A stretch of DNA of 29,645 nt from a virus. Within the stretch, counting starts at the first letter, position 1. Every line of letters begins with the position of its first letter. The translations under genes were made by a program, and so were the position numbers. The notes beneath the pieces were generated by a model that had not been told where the DNA came from, did no database searches, and saw nothing but the letters and a program-made list of their open reading frames with translations. The DNA lies in IMG/VR virus record IMGVR_UViG_3300010885_080910, positions 1 to 29,645 of that record; one strand, written 5' to 3'. Below, piece after piece: positions 367 to 8,407 of the stretch.

Positions 367-612
367 TCAGATATTGCGAGCTACTCTGCGGCGAGTTTCG
401 ACGACTTTACCTAGACGGCGACGAAGGCGGGTCTCCTCAATCTTGAGGGCCTTGATGTAATTGATTTTCTTCTCAAGAGCCTTGTCTGAACCGTGCTCGT
501 CGGCGTCGATTTCCTCGGCGTCCTTGGCACGGTCCTCGACGGACTCGCCCGAACCAAACTTGGAAACCTCTTCTTCGATTATCTTCTTGAGTAACGAGCT
601 CGTCAATTTCAT
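367..612 (-). CDS. Small charged protein, candidate head-core/scaffold component
   Basis: 81 residues starting at ATG 612. I prefer this start to the TTG 18 bases upstream because AGGAGA sits 6 bases before it. The N-terminus MKLTSSLLKKIIEEEVSKF is an amphipathic helix resembling those of the proteins at 673-1104 and 6451-6753. The middle is strongly acidic (about residues 22-42, many D/E). The C-terminal half is lysine/arginine-rich and probably helical or coiled (KALKIEETRLRRRLG). Small, highly charged helical proteins next to the prohead protease recall T4 gp67/gp68 core proteins, but I see no sequence that proves this. No clear LxE|A/G protease site was found near its N-terminus. Function: unknown; internal head protein is the best inference. 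Confidence 0.75.
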   Translation of the reverse strand: MKLTSSLLKKIIEEEVSKFGSGESVEDRAKDAEEIDADEHGSDKALEKKINYIKALKIEETRLRRRLGKVVETRRRVARNI

Positions 613-672: not shown

Positions 673-1104
673 TTACTTCTTGTTCGCTCCCATGAACGCC
701 AAGTCGGCCCACTTCGAAGCTGCTTCTTCACCAAAAAGTTGTTCTGGCGCGTAAGACGCCACAAGATTTTCAGCGCGGCCGGTCGGAGCGGCGTGTAGTT
801 TTGTTCTGTCGTTTTCTAGCATGGCAGGTAACGTAGTCGCAGCGGTGTCGGCCAAGATGTCGGCCAAGACGCTGTTTCCGCCGGATTCGCTCCTTATCGC
901 TTCCTTTAAGTTAGACGCCTGAACGGAACGGGAAACTGATCTCTGCGGAGCAAACGACATGTGAGATGTCGGATGAACCCGAGAAGGCTGTCGTCTGTTG
1001 GCTTCTTGTAAGGCATTTTCGGTCGAAGGCCCCATACCTTCCGACAAAATTTCCACAAGACATTCCTTGACTATGGACTTCAATTGTTGCTTGGATATTC
1101 CCAT
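673..1104 (-). CDS. Small head-region protein with N-terminal propeptide-like helix
   Basis: 143 residues from ATG 1104; a TTG at 1110 is an alternative (145 residues) with better spacing (6 bases) to the GGAAGG upstream, so the start is not settled. The TTG start would overlap the TGA of the upstream gene; the ATG lies 2 bases past that stop. The first 22 residues form an amphipathic helix (QQLKSIVKECLVEILSE) ending in L-S-E followed by Gly, which matches the (I/L)-x-E site cleaved by T4 gp21. The middle is Ser/Arg-rich and probably disordered. The C-terminus has a conserved-looking helix with EEAASKWADLAF. It lies two genes after the prohead protease. I do not recognise a named family; a cleaved internal head or scaffold protein is inferred from motif and position. 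Confidence 0.75.
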   Translation of the reverse strand: MGISKQQLKSIVKECLVEILSEGMGPSTENALQEANRRQPSRVHPTSHMSFAPQRSVSRSVQASNLKEAIRSESGGNSVLADILADTAATTLPAMLENDRTKLHAAPTGRAENLVASYAPEQLFGEEAASKWADLAFMGANKK

Positions 1105-1106
1105 GC

Positions 1107-1517
1107 TCAACCCACGCCTTCCCAGTAAGTAGCTCCACCAAGGGAACCAGTCAAAATAGGCATCATCATCGCGTCGATGGTCGTAAGATTGGCACAGACG
1201 CTTGTTGAAATATCGCTACCACCGTCTCTCAAAAGATAGAGCTCTTTAACTCTGACATTCAAGGTAATGTTGCTACCACCGTTGACAAGGATATAATAAG
1301 CATTGCCGACGCCATTAACGCCATTTTCAGTAAATCCAACTCGCAATCGCTGTGCGGCGGTCGTGTTGTTGTTGATGATCACTATGTCCTTTGTCACCTT
1401 GGGAAAAGAATATTTGACAACAGAGTTTGACACTGTGCCGGACAAGACCCAGGGCAGACCAGAAGCTGTGAATTCTGCGGCGTTATTGAAACCTGGTTTT
1501 ACGTTGTTCAAAGCCAT
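1107..1517 (-). CDS. Beta-rich small protein, possible virion/head decoration component
   Basis: 136 residues starting at ATG 1517, one base after the protease stop, with a strong ribosome binding site (GGAGGT, 7 bases upstream). The sequence alternates hydrophobic and polar residues as in an all-beta fold (KYSFPKVTKDIVIINNN, then YYILVNGGSNITLNVRVKELYLL), is rich in Asn, Gly and Thr, and has no signal peptide, transmembrane segment or catalytic motif. Its place between the prohead protease and the small core-like proteins suggests a virion surface or decoration role, but no named family is recognised. The C-terminus is Gly-rich (TGSLGGATYWEGVG). Confidence 0.75.
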   Translation of the reverse strand: MALNNVKPGFNNAAEFTASGLPWVLSGTVSNSVVKYSFPKVTKDIVIINNNTTAAQRLRVGFTENGVNGVGNAYYILVNGGSNITLNVRVKELYLLRDGGSDISTSVCANLTTIDAMMMPILTGSLGGATYWEGVG

Positions 1518-1518
1518 G

Positions 1519-2130
1519 TCACTTACCTCCGAACGAGATGATGTCGTTCAATACTCTGTCTATTCTATCCGACTTGTTGAATACCCTCCGAAGTTCGGAA
1601 GACTCTATCCTCTTGCCTTCGGGCAACATAAAGGCGCCTGGTGTCGAAGGCTCGGAGACATAATCCCAACATATCAGCTGAAAGTCGTCCTGCACCACAA
1701 AATAGTCACCTTGTTTCTTGGTCGAACCAACGCCACGCGAAGAGATTCCAAGCTTCACTCCTGATTCAACGAGAGATTGGAGAATCTTACCCGACGGTGT
1801 ATCTAGAATTTCTACAGTACCGTATACCGTGCCTCCCTCTAGATAGGCCTCACGGATCAAGTGAGAAACATTCTTTAAATTGACGACAGAAGAATCCGGG
1901 TGGTCCAGCTCTCCTAAAGCCCTGTTTTCTACAATAAACTTTTGATAGTTACGTATCTCGCGCTGAAGGACCTCTATCGGGTAGATTCTACCGTTCTGGT
2001 TTAGGGTATCGGCCTTTTGAAGGATACCCTTCATCATCACCTTGCCACCGTTCTTCTCCTTGGATTCCCGTATCATGTCGGGAGTATAGTCGAAGACCTC
2101 GTATGAATTTAAAAGTCGTAGGTCTTTCAT
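1519..2130 (-). CDS. 21: Prohead core protease, T4 gp21-like serine protease
   Basis: 203 residues, close to T4 gp21 (about 212). It cleaves scaffold, core and capsid precursors inside the prohead before DNA packaging. Visible motifs: NGRIYP (residues 46-51), the catalytic-His block ELDHP (His77) and the serine block GISSRG (Ser130/Ser131), in the order and spacing of the phage prohead protease family, whose fold is related to herpesvirus assemblins. The C-terminal part after about residue 165 is charged and may be autocleaved, as in T4. It starts with ATG at 2130 inside the ATGA overlap with the gene before it, with GGAG 9 bases upstream, so translation is probably coupled. Order portal - unknown - protease matches the T4 20-21 region. 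Confidence 0.93.
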   Translation of the reverse strand: MKDLRLLNSYEVFDYTPDMIRESKEKNGGKVMMKGILQKADTLNQNGRIYPIEVLQREIRNYQKFIVENRALGELDHPDSSVVNLKNVSHLIREAYLEGGTVYGTVEILDTPSGKILQSLVESGVKLGISSRGVGSTKKQGDYFVVQDDFQLICWDYVSEPSTPGAFMLPEGKRIESSELRRVFNKSDRIDRVLNDIISFGGK

Positions 2131-2996
2131 TGATTTTCTCCTTCGCTCGAAATGAGCTCGTGACGTAACGTAGAATACAACATAAACTTTGATACCGTAG
2201 AATCATCGACGGTCTCCAGCAGCTCGGATACGATCGCCGTCTTTGCTTCGTTCAGCTTCTTGACGAGAAAATTGTTGTCTTGGTTGTTGATCTTGTATTC
2301 TTCGATCGAATTCAAAAGATCGCTTCTCATCTCTTCGAGCTTCCTCTTTATCGTCGTCTGATCGTCATTGGCTGTAGAAAAAGCGTAAGCCTTGATGAGC
2401 TCCCGTTGCTCATCGCTAAGGACGTTGGAATACTTTTCGTTAAGCTTCTTCATCATCACCCGCATGAGAAGACGCGCGGTGCCAGGAGACTCGTCTATCA
2501 AGCCACTTTCGACGGTCTTCTTTTCCGATAGCAACCATGACCGAAGATGGTCTTCATACTTTGCAAGAGACGACAAATCGGCGGTTCCGACAGGCTTTCT
2601 CCACTCATTCAGCAACGTCTGTATGGTCGCGTACATCCTGTACTCGGCTATCGGCTGTTCGTAGAAGTTATCATCACGAAGGGAGTAGTTGATGCTACGT
2701 ATCAACAAAGACTTTTCTCTATCGAGAGCATTCATGTCTGCGGTCCGTGCCGCCATCCGTGCCTCACCAATGATAGAAGAAGAAACTCCGTCAGAACTAA
2801 CGGTGGTCTTAACCAAAGAATTAAACAACCTAAACTCCTTATAGAGCTGGGTGCCTGGTTTGTAGTACCTCCGCAAAATCTTAAGGGCTGTCGAAGACGT
2901 CTTCTTGTCTCCTTCGACGAGCGCACTAGAGATCTTGCGGATCAAAAACTCGTATAGCAAAGCGGTGTTACGCTTCTTGTTGTGTGATTTGGACAT
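2127..2996 (-). CDS. Conserved-looking helical protein between portal and prohead protease
   Basis: 289 residues from ATG 2996, chosen because AAAGG lies 8 bases upstream; a TTG at 3011 would add five residues and overlap the portal stop. The protein is almost wholly alpha-helical and charged, with a basic N-terminus (MSKSHNKKRN), then helices around ALLYEFLIRKISSALVEGD and a long Lys/Glu-rich region (about residues 175-260) with coiled-coil-like spacing. No enzyme motif is visible. L-V-E followed by Gly at residues 26-29 is a possible site for the neighbouring gp21-like protease. Location directly between portal and protease argues for a head-assembly role (core, scaffold or portal-associated protein). 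I do not recognise a named family. Confidence 0.8.
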   Translation of the reverse strand: MSKSHNKKRNTALLYEFLIRKISSALVEGDKKTSSTALKILRRYYKPGTQLYKEFRLFNSLVKTTVSSDGVSSSIIGEARMAARTADMNALDREKSLLIRSINYSLRDDNFYEQPIAEYRMYATIQTLLNEWRKPVGTADLSSLAKYEDHLRSWLLSEKKTVESGLIDESPGTARLLMRVMMKKLNEKYSNVLSDEQRELIKAYAFSTANDDQTTIKRKLEEMRSDLLNSIEEYKINNQDNNFLVKKLNEAKTAIVSELLETVDDSTVSKFMLYSTLRHELISSEGENQ

Positions 2997-3007
2997 CTGC
3001 GAACCTT

Positions 3008-6000
3008 TCAATCTTCGTCTGTGATAAATAAGCCTTCAATTTCATTATTGATATTTTTTTCTTCGACCAAAAGTCCGTCAGGCTGCTGGGGGCGAGGTCC
3101 TAACTTCAATGTCATGCGTCTCAAGGCCGAAGATACGTCTGACGGAAGGCTAGTCTTGAATCTCGGTGATGGTGATTCTTTGAATGGATCTCCTCTCATC
3201 TCTCGATTAGAAGCCTTGATGTCATAAGGGTCTTTTGTGTCCTTGTGAGACGTCATCTTCACAAAATCAGGTTGATGGAGATTGTGTTTCTTGCGACGAG
3301 AACTGTCATATATGGCTTTCTTTAGCTGAGATTGAGCTTTGACAGGGACCTTGTCCTTTTCGTAAAGCGGCATGTCTATATCAGGTTCGTCAGAAGACGT
3401 CAGAAGCTCGACGTCAGGTTCCTTTTCACCTGCGTCATCGCCGGCGAATAAATCTTCTCCTCCGCCTTCTTCCTCACCACCGGCGGCCTCTTCTTCTCCT
3501 CCGCCTTCTTCTCCTCCGCCTTCTTCCTCTCCGCCTTCTTCCTCTCCGCCACCAAAGAGATCACCGCCGCCTTCTTCTCCACCGCCTTCTTCTCCGCCTT
3601 CGCCTTCTTCTGGTTTAGCGTTCTCTATGGTGGTATCGACTATTTTTTCCTTGTAACGCTGGTCGTCGAGGGCTTCGCATTGTTCGTCAGTCAGACCCCA
3701 TATGGTCTTCCTAACAAATTCTTTGCTTCCCATACCTTCTGGCAAAGAACCACCAATTTCAAACTTAGAGCGCCAGAGTTCCAACTTCTGCTGCTGGGCC
3801 ACCGTCGATGGATTAGAGAGGTGCAGGGTAAAGTTCTGGAGATCTTCTCCATCAAACCCATTAGAATACAGATGGATTATTGCAAGTTTATTTAACTCAG
3901 CCAGAAGGACCTTCTGGATAACGTTGATAGTCCTAGAAAAACGGATGTCCTCTTGAGCCAACGTCGCCTTGGACGACAGCATCTCATCGTAACCCAAATA
4001 AGCCCGTGGAATCTTCAAAGCCGCAAACAACTTCTTTTGGATATAGGCGACGTCCTCGACAGCTGCCGCGTTCTGACCGCCCGCCAGGGTATCGATCTTT
4101 GTGCCGGAATCTCCGCCGCGGACAGGAATAAAATAATCGTCCTCTATGCTCAAAGGAGCGTATCGAAGATCCAGACGACCGGTCTGTCGATCGACAACTT
4201 GGTTGGTCCGAAGATTCTTTCTCTGTTCCTCAACATACATGGGAACATTCTCAGGAGGTATATTAGCAACATCGATATAGAAGACACGACGTTCTGGGGC
4301 ACGGACGACCCTGTATACTAACATGGCATCTTCGATTAGTATTAATTGACGCCAGATGCGCCGAGCCGCCTCGATGACCGAAGAGCCGTAGGGCAAGAAC
4401 ATGTCATTTCCAAGCAGACGGAAGTGAGTGACTTCCCAATTCTCTAAAGTCCTGTTGCCTAATGTAACCCAACGATAGCGAACGGCAAAGGGATCGTTGG
4501 GATCATAATTCTCTTCTCTTTCTATTTCATTGACAGGAATAGGAAAAGCGTTGATGACTCCATACTCGGGTGAAACATCGTTGTAGAGGAAAAAATCACC
4601 GTACTTGACAAGGTTACGAGCCCATGATCGGAGGTTAAATTCTACATTTAGAGTATTATAAAAAAGGTCTTCGAGAATCTCTTTGACCTTTTCATTGTCA
4701 GAATAGATGTGTAATACTCTACCTTTTTCGTCCTGCGCACAGGTTTCATCGGCATATATGTCAAGAGCCGCGGCTAGCTCCGGTGTGTTGTGAGATATTA
4801 CCGAATCGGTCGCAAAATTCTTATATCCATCGACGGTTAAGTCGTAGAGCGGAATAACTCCCATGTATTCTATGGATTCCACTTTACAATTTTGATAAGC
4901 CGAAGCAAATTCGCTGTACCTCTTGTGACCTTGTTGCGCCAATCGAGAAATGATGGTGTTCTTGTTAACACCTAAAGAAGAAGCCAATCGGGGGAGAGTT
5001 TGGCCTGGTAGATAGGCGTCACATATTTGCTGAAATGTTATTTCGTGATTATTCTTTTCCTTGGGTCTTCCACCACGGCGGAGCAAGTTTGAAAAGCCAG
5101 TGCTTCCTTGATCGTTGTATCCCAAAGAAGACCTCAGCTGCGTCCAGGTCATTCTTTCTCTTTTTGCTAAAAATTTATCCAGCACATTGGTGGTACAACC
5201 TAATTTAATGGCCAAAGATCGCTTTGTGTCCTCGGGAAGAACTACAGAACGTATCATATCTAACGTCAAGTCTCTTGTCAACAATCCAGGACGACCATCG
5301 ATCAGAGAATCTTTTTGTCCATCGCGATAAGCTTCGACAAATTGCTCAAAATTGGCAAATCCATGTGCTGTCAGCCGAGAATATATCAAATTCCAGGTCA
5401 CATCTAAGGTCGACGCAATCGCAGGCATGCTAAAACCGACGCGCTCGGCCGCTTCCAGTATCCTAGAAAATGTAACGTCGGTGCGGGCGGTTGGGGCATT
5501 GTCACGCATCCATGCGGAATGACGTTTTTTAAAGTCTTCTATCCATTCCCCATTTTCAGGCGACCATTTTACATTATTATTTAAGGCTGTGTGATAAGAA
5601 TCGTGATCCGACTTCGACATAATTTTTAGATTTTCTGGTCGATTGTCGGTCTTCACAAAATTAATGTGATGAACCACTTCATCTTCTGCCAAATTTCTAC
5701 CCACAACCCACTCGGCAACCATCTGGTGCTCTTTGGTCCATCCACGGAACCTATCGTCCATCGTATAAATCCAAGAATATCCCCCGGTGCCTTCCTTGGC
5801 CCCTTCAAAAAGATCCTTGCGATAGAAGGGCATCATGGAATCCCCAGGCTGTAAATCCTCAACCTTCCTGTAGGTGCCATCTCGCAACATCAAACGATGC
5901 TCTGGGCTGGCAATTATTTCCTTGCCGTTATCAAATTTGACTTTCCACGCATGGTCAACGCAAGTCTGACGAGCTTGCTTGCCCAATGCTGGCACTATTT

Positions 6001-6376
6001 TTTTCTGTACATGGTCGTAAGAATAAACGACGAAGGTCTTATTCGGATCTTTTTCGCACTCTTCCGTCAACTCACCGATAGTTTTGAATCCATCAGGCGT
6101 AGCAATTTTTGTAGAAATTGCCAGTGAATATTCCATTTCTTGAAAATCTTGGTACCTCATCAGGCGCTCTGAGAGGTTATAAGCGTTGGCCGTAATGGTC
6201 GCGTAAGTTGGAGCCAAAGACTTTTGAAATAGTAACGCTCCAGAAGACTTGGACTTGTCGGCCATCGCTATCGTCGTGTCAAGGGTCCTTATCTTACGCT
6301 TGACGACAGGACCGCTCTTGAACAGTTTGGACAGTCTCTGAAATAAAGAATTTGGTTTTTGGTCTTTGCTTGCCAT
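3008..6376 (-). CDS. 20: Portal protein, T4 gp20-like, interrupted by an intein
   Basis: 1122 residues from ATG 6376 (a TTG at 6394 would add six). Removing the intein (nt 4787-6127) leaves a portal of about 675 residues. The portal ring sits at one capsid vertex, nucleates the prohead and is the DNA channel. Support: extein residues QEMEY join TPELAAALDIYADE, the conserved N-terminal block of T4-type portals; downstream there is DFFLYNDVSPEYG, EVTHFRLLGNDMFLPYGSS, the helical stem region RVFYIDVANIPP, and GYDEMLSSKATLAQEDIRF typical of gp20 homologues. It is longer than T4 gp20 (524) because of a Glu/Gly-rich segment (nt about 3433-3615) and a basic tail. It lies downstream of the terminase and upstream of the protease, as expected. 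Confidence 0.93.
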   Translation of the reverse strand: MASKDQKPNSLFQRLSKLFKSGPVVKRKIRTLDTTIAMADKSKSSGALLFQKSLAPTYATITANAYNLSERLMRYQDFQEMEYSLAISTKIATPDGFKTIGELTEECEKDPNKTFVVYSYDHVQKKIVPALGKQARQTCVDHAWKVKFDNGKEIIASPEHRLMLRDGTYRKVEDLQPGDSMMPFYRKDLFEGAKEGTGGYSWIYTMDDRFRGWTKEHQMVAEWVVGRNLAEDEVVHHINFVKTDNRPENLKIMSKSDHDSYHTALNNNVKWSPENGEWIEDFKKRHSAWMRDNAPTARTDVTFSRILEAAERVGFSMPAIASTLDVTWNLIYSRLTAHGFANFEQFVEAYRDGQKDSLIDGRPGLLTRDLTLDMIRSVVLPEDTKRSLAIKLGCTTNVLDKFLAKRERMTWTQLRSSLGYNDQGSTGFSNLLRRGGRPKEKNNHEITFQQICDAYLPGQTLPRLASSLGVNKNTIISRLAQQGHKRYSEFASAYQNCKVESIEYMGVIPLYDLTVDGYKNFATDSVISHNTPELAAALDIYADETCAQDEKGRVLHIYSDNEKVKEILEDLFYNTLNVEFNLRSWARNLVKYGDFFLYNDVSPEYGVINAFPIPVNEIEREENYDPNDPFAVRYRWVTLGNRTLENWEVTHFRLLGNDMFLPYGSSVIEAARRIWRQLILIEDAMLVYRVVRAPERRVFYIDVANIPPENVPMYVEEQRKNLRTNQVVDRQTGRLDLRYAPLSIEDDYFIPVRGGDSGTKIDTLAGGQNAAAVEDVAYIQKKLFAALKIPRAYLGYDEMLSSKATLAQEDIRFSRTINVIQKVLLAELNKLAIIHLYSNGFDGEDLQNFTLHLSNPSTVAQQQKLELWRSKFEIGGSLPEGMGSKEFVRKTIWGLTDEQCEALDDQRYKEKIVDTTIENAKPEEGEGGEEGGGEEGGGDLFGGGEEEGGEEEGGGEEGGGEEEAAGGEEEGGGEDLFAGDDAGEKEPDVELLTSSDEPDIDMPLYEKDKVPVKAQSQLKKAIYDSSRRKKHNLHQPDFVKMTSHKDTKDPYDIKASNREMRGDPFKESPSPRFKTSLPSDVSSALRRMTLKLGPRPQQPDGLLVEEKNINNEIEGLFITDED
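3433..3615 (-). repeat. Glu/Gly-rich low-complexity repeat in the portal C-terminus
   Basis: About 60 residues made almost only of Glu and Gly in units such as GGEEEGG and GGGEEGGG, twice broken by DLF (GGGDLFGGG and GGEDLFAGDD). On the plus strand it appears as repeated CCGCCTTCTTC blocks. It follows the folded portal core and precedes an acidic then basic tail. It is likely a flexible, strongly acidic extension; its length may vary between relatives through slippage. Confidence 0.85.
4787..6127 (-). other. Intein with HNH homing endonuclease inside the portal gene
   Basis: 447 residues. The N-terminal splice residue is Ser (SLAISTKIATPDGF, block A). Block B is GKEIIASPEHRLML, with Ser in place of the usual Thr but the His kept. 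The C-terminal blocks F and G read LYDLTVDGYKNF and VISHN, followed by Thr+1 of the extein. So splicing would use Ser1, the block B His, the penultimate His and terminal Asn, and Thr+1. Between the splicing halves is an HNH nuclease: VHHINFVKTDNRPENLKIM followed by DHDSYH. After it come three repeats of about 50 residues that look like helix-turn-helix DNA-binding units. The reading frame is open throughout, so the element is probably active or recently so. The insertion point is in a conserved portal block. Confidence 0.93.
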
Positions 6377-6415
6377 ATAGTCTTGCCTGTCCAATCGTGG
6401 ACGCGGCTCTCGCTC

Positions 6416-6450: not shown

Positions 6451-6753
6451 TCACATTACTTTGCCAGCGGGCCTGAGGGACACCTTTTTGGCCGTGGGCT
6501 TGGGAGTATCGACATAGTTCATTGGAGAATTGATAACACTCTTGAGAACATTCTCAAGGGCGTCAAGATGAGAAGAAGTCTCTGCTTTGGCCTTGCCTGT
6601 GGCTGATTCCTTAAATGACTCTATGGCCGCGATCAATTTGACGGCAGATGCCATGACTTTGGATGCCGTATCATGGTCGGCGCCTTCGTGGAGGTTGGCT
6701 ATCTCTTCTGAAATAATCTTTCTTAGCGTTGTGATGTTGATCTTATTGGACAT
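6451..6753 (-). CDS. Small helical protein, candidate protease-processed head protein
   Basis: 100 residues, ATG 6753, with GAGGA five bases upstream. The N-terminus (INITTLRKIISEEIANLHE then Gly) shares the helix motif of the small head genes at 367-612 and 673-1104, and its L-H-E|G at residues 21-24 matches the T4 gp21-type cleavage rule. The rest is an Ala/Ser/Lys-rich helix followed by a Pro/Lys-rich basic tail (PKPTAKKVSLRPAGK) that could bind DNA or be flexible. It sits between terminase and portal. No named family recognised. An internal or core protein delivered into the prohead by a removable leader is the inference; the leader bases ATTCACATG are also shared with the gene at 612. 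Confidence 0.75.
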   Translation of the reverse strand: MSNKINITTLRKIISEEIANLHEGADHDTASKVMASAVKLIAAIESFKESATGKAKAETSSHLDALENVLKSVINSPMNYVDTPKPTAKKVSLRPAGKVM

Positions 6754-6793: not shown

Positions 6794-8407
6794 TCAACGA
6801 TACAGCCAAGAAAAGTCAGAAACGTCGGCGTGGCGCACCGAAGCGGGGTCCTTGGGCTTAAATACGTCTCTTGGGCTTGGGACCTGACCAGAGATGGCTG
6901 GATTTACCAATGGTTTGGCAGAGTTGACGTCGCCTGGCATATTGGTGTTGCGTTCTAATTTTGTGGCTTTGAGCATGGCATAGGACATGGCCATGGCCTG
7001 CTCGTTGATCCCTGATTCTCCTGCTGATAACCAGACAGTGATTGCCAGGCTCATGATGAGATCATCGTGAGCGTCCTTGGAGGATTGGGCCCTATTGCCG
7101 TTCCAGATGAATGCCTGGAGTTGATCGTATAGTCGTTGTGAATAAACCTTAACGACGGAGTTCCTGATGAGTTCTTCTAATTTGGCTAGGATCTGTGCCC
7201 TGGTTTTTGTCTGCGTCGAGAAGCCAGGTATCGCATCTGGATTTGTGGACTTGTATTCGAAATGATCTCCGGAAGAGCTTTGGTAATACAGGTGCGGGTA
7301 GCCTTCATCTCGTAATTTGACACAGGTAAAATACCCAAATGTATTTTGCTCCGGACACAGCAATGCATCGTTATACATCTTGCCGTATTCAGAAAGCAAA
7401 TCGGCGAATTTATCCGGGGGTATTTTACCCATATATTCAGCAACAATTTCGCAAGTCTCGTTATCGACCACGTGAAAAGTAGAGAAATCTCCTGCATCTC
7501 CTCTAGCTACGTCGGCGCCGATGATGTATTTTTTGCCGGAAGATGGTCTACTCCAGATCCAAACTGCGCTCTGCGGACCTTTCTTTTCCAGAGGTGGTCG
7601 AATCATCTCACGAAGATATTCTAGCTCTGTAGGCTGGAGGAATGTGTCGCCTGATGATATGAAATCACACAAAAATTCTTGGGCAACTTTTCGCTTTGGC
7701 AGGTTCTTTGTTTCTTTATCAAACCACTCTTGGTCGTGCTCAGGATGGACCCACCATGGCAGCTTGATGGTATTAAATTCATTCTGTTTGGTCTCGCCGT
7801 CCATCCAGAGACGATAGTACTGTCCTCCAACACCATTAGGAGTTGAAATAATGATGGCATTGCCACCGGTGGATAACGTAGGATAGAGACCGGTCCAGAT
7901 ATCCTCAAAGTCTCTAATAAAAGCAGCTTCATCGACGATGAGCAAAGACAGGGCTTCGGACCGACCGGCGTCGGGACTTGTTGGTATGGCTGTTATTGTA
8001 GAACCATTGGCGAAGGCTATCGATTGTTTCGTTGGTTCGTATTTCGTTAACAACAACCAAGGCGGTAGACCGTCCAGCATGATCTTTATTTTTTTAATGA
8101 AGTTCATGGCAGTCGATAGCTTTGTGGCTATGACTAAGATGTTCTTATCCTTTTTAAAAATAGCGAACCATGTGGCGTAAGCCGCCGTAACCGTGGAAAG
8201 ACCCAGCTGCCTAGATTTAAGGACTATGTTGAAACGACTTTCTTCAAATGATTTAACACAATCATCCTGAAAATCATAAGTCTCAAAAGGAACAAGACCC
8301 CGCAACATGTGCTGGATCTTTACGTAGTTCCGCATGAAGTAGACGGGTTCTTTGCCGCAGCGGATTATTTCCTTTATTTGTTCGCTTCTTGTCAGCGGCT
8401 TTATCAT
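6794..8407 (-). CDS. 17: Terminase large subunit (packaging ATPase and nuclease), T4 gp17-like
   Basis: 537 residues. It pumps DNA into the prohead through the portal and cuts the concatemer. Domains in order: N-terminal ATPase with Walker A-like KSRQLGLST (64-72), Walker B plus catalytic Glu LLIVDEAAFI (155-164), and coupling motif STPNG (188-192); C-terminal RNase H-fold nuclease with acidic residues in GADVARGD (Asp299), PEQN (Glu353) and DAHDDL (Asp448/Asp449). The length is a little shorter than T4 gp17 (610). ATG 8407 is inside an ATGA overlap with the gene before it, so the two are translationally coupled. No intein or frameshift is seen in this gene. Confidence 0.96.
   Translation of the reverse strand: MIKPLTRSEQIKEIIRCGKEPVYFMRNYVKIQHMLRGLVPFETYDFQDDCVKSFEESRFNIVLKSRQLGLSTVTAAYATWFAIFKKDKNILVIATKLSTAMNFIKKIKIMLDGLPPWLLLTKYEPTKQSIAFANGSTITAIPTSPDAGRSEALSLLIVDEAAFIRDFEDIWTGLYPTLSTGGNAIIISTPNGVGGQYYRLWMDGETKQNEFNTIKLPWWVHPEHDQEWFDKETKNLPKRKVAQEFLCDFISSGDTFLQPTELEYLREMIRPPLEKKGPQSAVWIWSRPSSGKKYIIGADVARGDAGDFSTFHVVDNETCEIVAEYMGKIPPDKFADLLSEYGKMYNDALLCPEQNTFGYFTCVKLRDEGYPHLYYQSSSGDHFEYKSTNPDAIPGFSTQTKTRAQILAKLEELIRNSVVKVYSQRLYDQLQAFIWNGNRAQSSKDAHDDLIMSLAITVWLSAGESGINEQAMAMSYAMLKATKLERNTNMPGDVNSAKPLVNPAISGQVPSPRDVFKPKDPASVRHADVSDFSWLYR

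Follow-up and report, generated by a model that had tools for sequence, protein, structure and literature searches.

A shared N-terminal leader of uncultured T4-like phages and its putative role in capsid targeting

The window, meaning the whole stretch of DNA that was analysed, is 29,645 bases long and is part of the genome of an uncultured T4-like phage known from a virus record. Its minus strand carries a head operon in the order terminase, protein A, portal with intein, a 294-aa protein, S77 protease, a 136-aa protein, protein B, protein C and the start of a further, partial gene; in relatives, the scaffold and the major capsid protein come next. The features are listed below, with a slash marking a proposed cut within a motif.

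6794..8407, minus strand: terminase large subunit (PF03237, 7.1e-14; phrog_2)
6451..6753, minus strand: protein A, 100 aa, between terminase and portal
6685..6753, minus strand: leader of protein A, residues 1-23, ending LHE/G (alignment of 17 homologues; structure prediction)
3008..6394, minus strand: portal protein (gp20 type) with intein and HNH endonuclease (PF07230, 3.7e-68; PF14890, 7.9e-15)
2127..3011, minus strand: 294-aa protein between portal and protease, function unknown (no significant Pfam or PHROG family)
1519..2130, minus strand: S77 prohead core protein protease (PF03420, E 9.3e-26; phrog_207)
1107..1517, minus strand: 136-aa head operon protein, function unknown (no Pfam or PHROG match)
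673..1104, minus strand: protein B, 143 aa, with conserved blocks ILADTA and SKWAxLAF
1036..1104, minus strand: leader of protein B, residues 1-23; proposed cut after E22 (codon 1041-1039), P1' Gly23
367..612, minus strand: protein C, 81 aa, acidic
553..612, minus strand: diverged leader of protein C, MKLTSSLLKKIIEEEVSKFG, without a downstream [IL]xE

The intein and HNH endonuclease domain lie in frame within the portal gene, at roughly residues 100-536, and the C-terminal part of the portal carries a long Glu/Gly-rich repeat tail (about 3400-3620 of the window). The neighbouring gene taken for a prohead protease when only the letters had been read is indeed of the S77/gp21 type, with PF03420 scoring 91 bits against a cut-off of 27.

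Protein B begins with ATG at 1104 in the frame 1104-673, and its residues 1-23 (positions 1104-1036) read MGISKQQLKSIVKECLVEILSEG, giving the N-terminus MGISKQQLKSIVKECLVEILSE/G; this start is supported by homologues with the same beginning (MGI, MKI or MAK). The sequence-only reading had placed a leader with an LxE/G site here and a putative cut after residue 22, and both positions were borne out: the LSE ends at E22, and its conservation across 74 B homologues is more than chance would give. When virus contigs were scanned with the protease and B as queries, 119 related loci emerged, and among the 74 B homologues from dereplicated contigs P1 was E in 72 and D in 2, P1' was G in 69, and P2 varied. 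L20, E22 and G23 were each conserved in at least 90% of a 48-sequence alignment, while residue 21 was not, and the stretch of B beyond the leader was poorly conserved. AlphaFold predicted a helix at residues 5-23 (pLDDT 85-90) followed by low confidence to about residue 60, which places the site at the end of the helix.

Further sites follow in B, namely LVE18/I, LQE34/A (E34 codon 1005-1003) and LKE68/A (E68 codon 903-901), and the final mature start may therefore lie elsewhere than at Gly23. In 67% of B homologues, compared to 8% of shuffled sequences, an [IL]xE followed by a small or polar P1' residue (A, S, G, T or N) lies no more than 30 residues past the leader. Because of the further LxE/A sites, B is read as probably a core protein cut several times, like T4 gp67 and gp68, rather than cargo that simply starts at Gly23. 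B had no significant homologue in the phages collection. A RelB-like antitoxin was considered for the B leader and rejected: the Pfam match (E 0.049) covered only the helix and fell well below the curated score.

The similar helices seen at 612 (MKLTSSLLKKIIEEEVSKF) and 6753 (MSNKINITTLRKIISEEIANLHE/G) are both real and both genes lie in conserved synteny; the resemblance extends to the LHE/G end in A, but not to C, which has no downstream [IL]xE. A hydrophobic-x-E was read from the alignment at the leader end in 16 of the 17 A homologues, P3 being I or L in roughly half of them, and in the predicted structure of A the leader helix (7-21) stops at the LHE/G site and a helical body begins at 24. 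Within the C family a downstream [IL]xE occurred in only 3 of 30 members and in none of the 19 of the KFG type, to which the C of the window belongs. All three carriers lie in the head operon, and A, B and C are probably core or assembly proteins of this phage.

As judged from sequence, the N-termini of A and B and the diverged one of C fall into an extensive family of leaders at protein N-termini, of the pattern MK-[IVL]-[ST]-[KR]-x-QL-[KR]-x-II-x-E-(E)-...-[LI]-x-E/(G, A, S, N or Q), with the form of a basic amphipathic helix of 14-28 residues. A matrix trained on B leaders alone was run against 1646 other genes (452,448 positions) and gave 28 matches of at least 12 bits, 27 of them N-terminal; 13 of the top matches were B orthologues overlooked by the training regex and the rest were other genes. 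At a lax threshold (E ≤ 10), the leader profile was found in 17 long relatives at 1-29 places per record. Four records were examined in full (G002, G003, G004 and G006), and they gave 51 leader proteins that were mostly unrelated to one another: only 10 homologous hits extended past residue 30, all confined to B, C and one other pair. Another 20 records, found by the leader pattern alone, held 2-40 copies each (E ≤ 0.01) in tandem clusters. The environmental phage records with leader copies span 82-293 kb, and the leader proteins of large phages form clusters away from the head operon that vary between phages.

A short leader query of the phages collection found one record only, the uncultured LR756508.1, and scans of 132 leader proteins with Pfam and PHROGs found no family for the leader. 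Neither the leader sequence nor a shared leader in environmental phages was found in open papers, subscription papers and preprints not being covered.

A set of 215 leader proteins, chosen by their leader core, was compared with shuffled sequences over the 16 residues after the core. The [IL]xE motif occurred there in 56.7% of the proteins against 25.8 ± 2.7% after shuffling (z 11.4), and [IL]x followed by D, Q, K, R, S, A or G was not enriched in the same set; the shuffle tests ignore phylogeny. At P1', A, S, G or Q was commonest. The leaders fall mainly into two classes by length, the EEK type ending LLxE/ at residue 22, as in B, and the EEY type ending LIxE/ at 27; the end motif thus survives the extra residues of the longer class. 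Many leader proteins carry a short form, IIxE/A or IIxE/S, and IIxE followed by A, G or S inside the core was found in 35 of the 93 proteins without a downstream site as opposed to 12 of the 122 with one (Fisher p 1.7e-6). Roughly 58 of the 215, about a quarter, lack both the downstream [IL]xE and an IIxE with A, G or S behind it. The [IL]xxE motif was enriched too, which is partly expected from LLxE and also from an amphipathic helix.

Comparable sites occur in the head proteins on which such a protease would act. All 48 capsid proteins of relatives have an LxE at the gp23-type maturation position, with the consensus [VLIA]-L-[KR]-E/[SAQV] (the T4 equivalent is FLTE/A at 65), and 69 of 71 relatives have an [IL]xE in the protease N-terminus ahead of the conserved protease domain, IRE22/S in the window (E22 codon 2067-2065); in both proteins these are sequence sites whose cutting has not been shown. 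The scaffold has 2.85 [IL]xE per 100 aa where 1.67 would be expected, and [IL]xD is not enriched. T4 gp21 cleaves after L/I-X-E, and propeptides of 10-19 residues target the T4 internal proteins into the core (PMC9026906). The putative specificity of the window protease fits the L/I-x-E sites found in leader, capsid protein and protease.

The leader also co-occurred with the protease family. PF03420 was present in 17 of 20 records found by their leader compared to 2 of 20 random records (p 3.4e-6), and no leader was found in the 20 random records. The random records, drawn by an arbitrary 14-mer, were shorter on average, a bias in favour of the contrast, and the leader records are mutually related. 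The three leader records without S77 are 83-99 kb long and are probably fragments. In the 484-kb phage LR756508.1 the leader was hit 15 times, and one of these hits lies about 1.4 kb from an S77 gene. No leader profile match was found in T4, P-SSM2, S-SRM01 and Mel-JY01, in which S77 is present, and a single partial match in the immuto phage (profile positions 5-17) was not counted. Within these data, the apparent rule is that the leader goes with S77, not the reverse.

Two side observations concern S77 phages more generally. The S77 match of LR756508.1 (156507-158102, locus L386) is split in two, with about 1 kb between its parts in a single open frame of 576 aa, which suggests an in-frame insertion such as an intein. 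Other S77 phages have different N-termini that also end in [IL]xE (L123:3284-3592; L122:13922-15004), for example MKSFKQFISE/S in S-SRM01 and ...HFIAE/A in Flavobacterium phage immuto, and several leader codes may exist among S77 phages.

A cellular function of the leader was also considered. Scanning prokaryotes, with one genome for each of 84,980 species, found the leader at six loci only, all in MAGs, and in most of these leader genes were crowded, with up to 17 in 20 kb; an S77 gene was present in two of the three MAGs checked. The leader-dense contigs L388, L389 and L391 (NHDW01000006.1, PBIO01000025.1) are assigned to Methylococcaceae and Halobacteriovorax and look like large phage contigs binned with bacteria. 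A cellular function was rejected, as the loci look to be of phage origin.

The annotation of the leader proteins themselves was sparse. No function common to the 132 proteins scanned emerged from Pfam, PHROGs or PADLOC, and PHROG matches were limited to three families with one member each. The scattered single matches, an HD domain, a weak EF-hand and one PADLOC JetB match, define no cargo class, and the mature part was acidic in 78% of leader proteins, whose median length is 113 aa. The HD phosphohydrolase match (PF13328, 6e-9; phrog_990, E 2.6e-28) probably belongs to the gene at L258:1319-2263 (minus strand), which has the leader-like start MKVSRKLIREILLE; this assignment is an inference from its sequence, as the scans gave counts and not members, and a packaged nucleotide hydrolase is a possible product. 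A small leader protein at L094:16792-17010 (plus strand) has an EF-hand-like stretch, DLNKDGKNDFADV, right after its leader.

The initial proposal of a capsid-targeting leader shared by several small cargo or core proteins is supported by these results, and its sequence-level predictions all held. By analogy with T4, we consider it likely that the leader is a long-form, T4-like capsid-targeting sequence cut off by the S77 protease, with both cleavage and packaging inferred. Freshly synthesized proteins would be docked by the leader in the prohead's scaffold core, where cleavage after [IL]-x-E by the S77 protease would release their bodies within the head. B would probably be cut into pieces like T4 gp67 and gp68, and in related large phages the leader on tens of small orphan proteins would mark them as internal proteins that are packaged and, probably, injected along with the DNA. 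Observed in the sequences are the leader common to these proteins, its place at the N-terminus, the statistics of its end site, the co-occurrence with S77 and the sites in capsid protein and protease; docking to the core and the actual cut are inferred from T4, as are presence in virions and injection, there being no virion data.

The observations on the head operon would also be consistent with the leader being a core-assembly helix only, its carriers being degraded at maturation and neither retained nor injected as cargo. A, B and C all lie in that operon, B contains several LxE/A sites, C is small and acidic like gp67, and the scaffolds are rich in [IL]xE. However, the tens of variable, mostly unrelated carriers off the head operon fit accessory cargo better, and we regard this explanation as unlikely, though not negligible. 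The orphan nature of most carriers, many of them far from the head operon, might instead point to a task unrelated to the head, such as binding of host or phage proteins or placement in the cell, with [IL]xE arising as a by-product of the amphipathic helix; the additional enrichment of [IL]xxE and the quarter of carriers without a clear site would agree with this. Against this stand an enrichment at the third place for Glu only and not for D, K, R or Q, an end motif kept in the length variants, the small-P1' alternative in leaders that lack the downstream site, the co-occurrence with S77 and the absence of the leader from random phages. This reading appears improbable.

It is also conceivable that the leader targets proteins into the head and stays on, its likeness to a protease site reflecting shared docking chemistry. 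In T4, Asp at the cut position stops processing and not targeting (PMC9026906), two B homologues have D at P1, and C has no downstream site. However, Glu at P1 in 72 of 74 B homologues with P2 free is the pattern expected of a substrate, and the same motif lies at the maturation positions of the capsid protein and the protease; a retained leader seems very improbable.

Extending the preferred reading, a targeting leader removed by the S77 protease, many uncultured T4-like phages of about 100-480 kb may load each virion with tens of orphan proteins by means of a single leader code (a record has up to about 40 such genes), the protease stripping the tag from each. Their injected internal proteome would then far exceed the handful of T4, having arisen by fusion of the same 5' module to new genes; we give this extension only slightly more credence than its opposite. 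If it is true, a 20-residue signature would predict, on sequence evidence alone, head-carried, probably injected proteins in large environmental phages, many of them unannotated, and would list candidate early-acting and anti-defence proteins in phages that cannot yet be grown. It would also supply a new leader with which cargo could be directed into phage heads, and it would reveal the way in which T4-like phages acquire further packaged proteins.

Several known systems share parts of this arrangement. In SPN3US, two head-protein propeptides of 20 and 24 residues have been described (PMC10052503), and SPN3US and phiKZ resemble the present case in the removal of N-terminal propeptides from head proteins by a gp21-like protease; the SPN3US motif is A-x-E, however, and no common leader across many proteins is reported there. 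The N-terminal residues of P1 DarB suffice to carry a reporter into the P1 capsid (PMC9024508). That signal has been described on a single protein of very large size; P1 has an HK97-like capsid and a predicted protease, Pro, and no multi-gene leader has been described for it.

Among T4 proteins, gp67 and gp68 are likewise small head-operon proteins near the protease with several LxE sites. B and C resemble them by position, and only B does so by the number of sites; B and C lie downstream of the protease gene, whereas gp67 and gp68 lie upstream, and no family match for B or C was found in Pfam or PHROGs.

A close parallel would be the capsid-targeting sequence of T4 IPI-IPIII, a short N-terminal segment on otherwise unrelated small basic proteins of an S77 phage that is removed after [IL]-x-E. 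A segment common to otherwise unrelated proteins is met by the 51 leader proteins; the terminal [IL]-x-E is met as a sequence site in A and B and not in C, and its removal is only proposed for the leader of the window. The bodies of leader proteins are mostly acidic, unlike the basic T4 internal proteins. A search of T4 with the leader profile gave nothing at E ≤ 0.1, and the leader is therefore described as working like the T4 sequence and not as shown to be homologous to it; as no leader of this sequence was convincingly found in T4 or the other S77 phages examined, the partner to which it docks may differ from that of T4. The leader differs in sequence and is longer (14-28 compared to 10-19 residues), and its phages have tens of carriers each, unlike T4. 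Its short form, MKITRRQLRRIIKE/A, has the same layout as the T4 leader MKTYQEFIAE/A.
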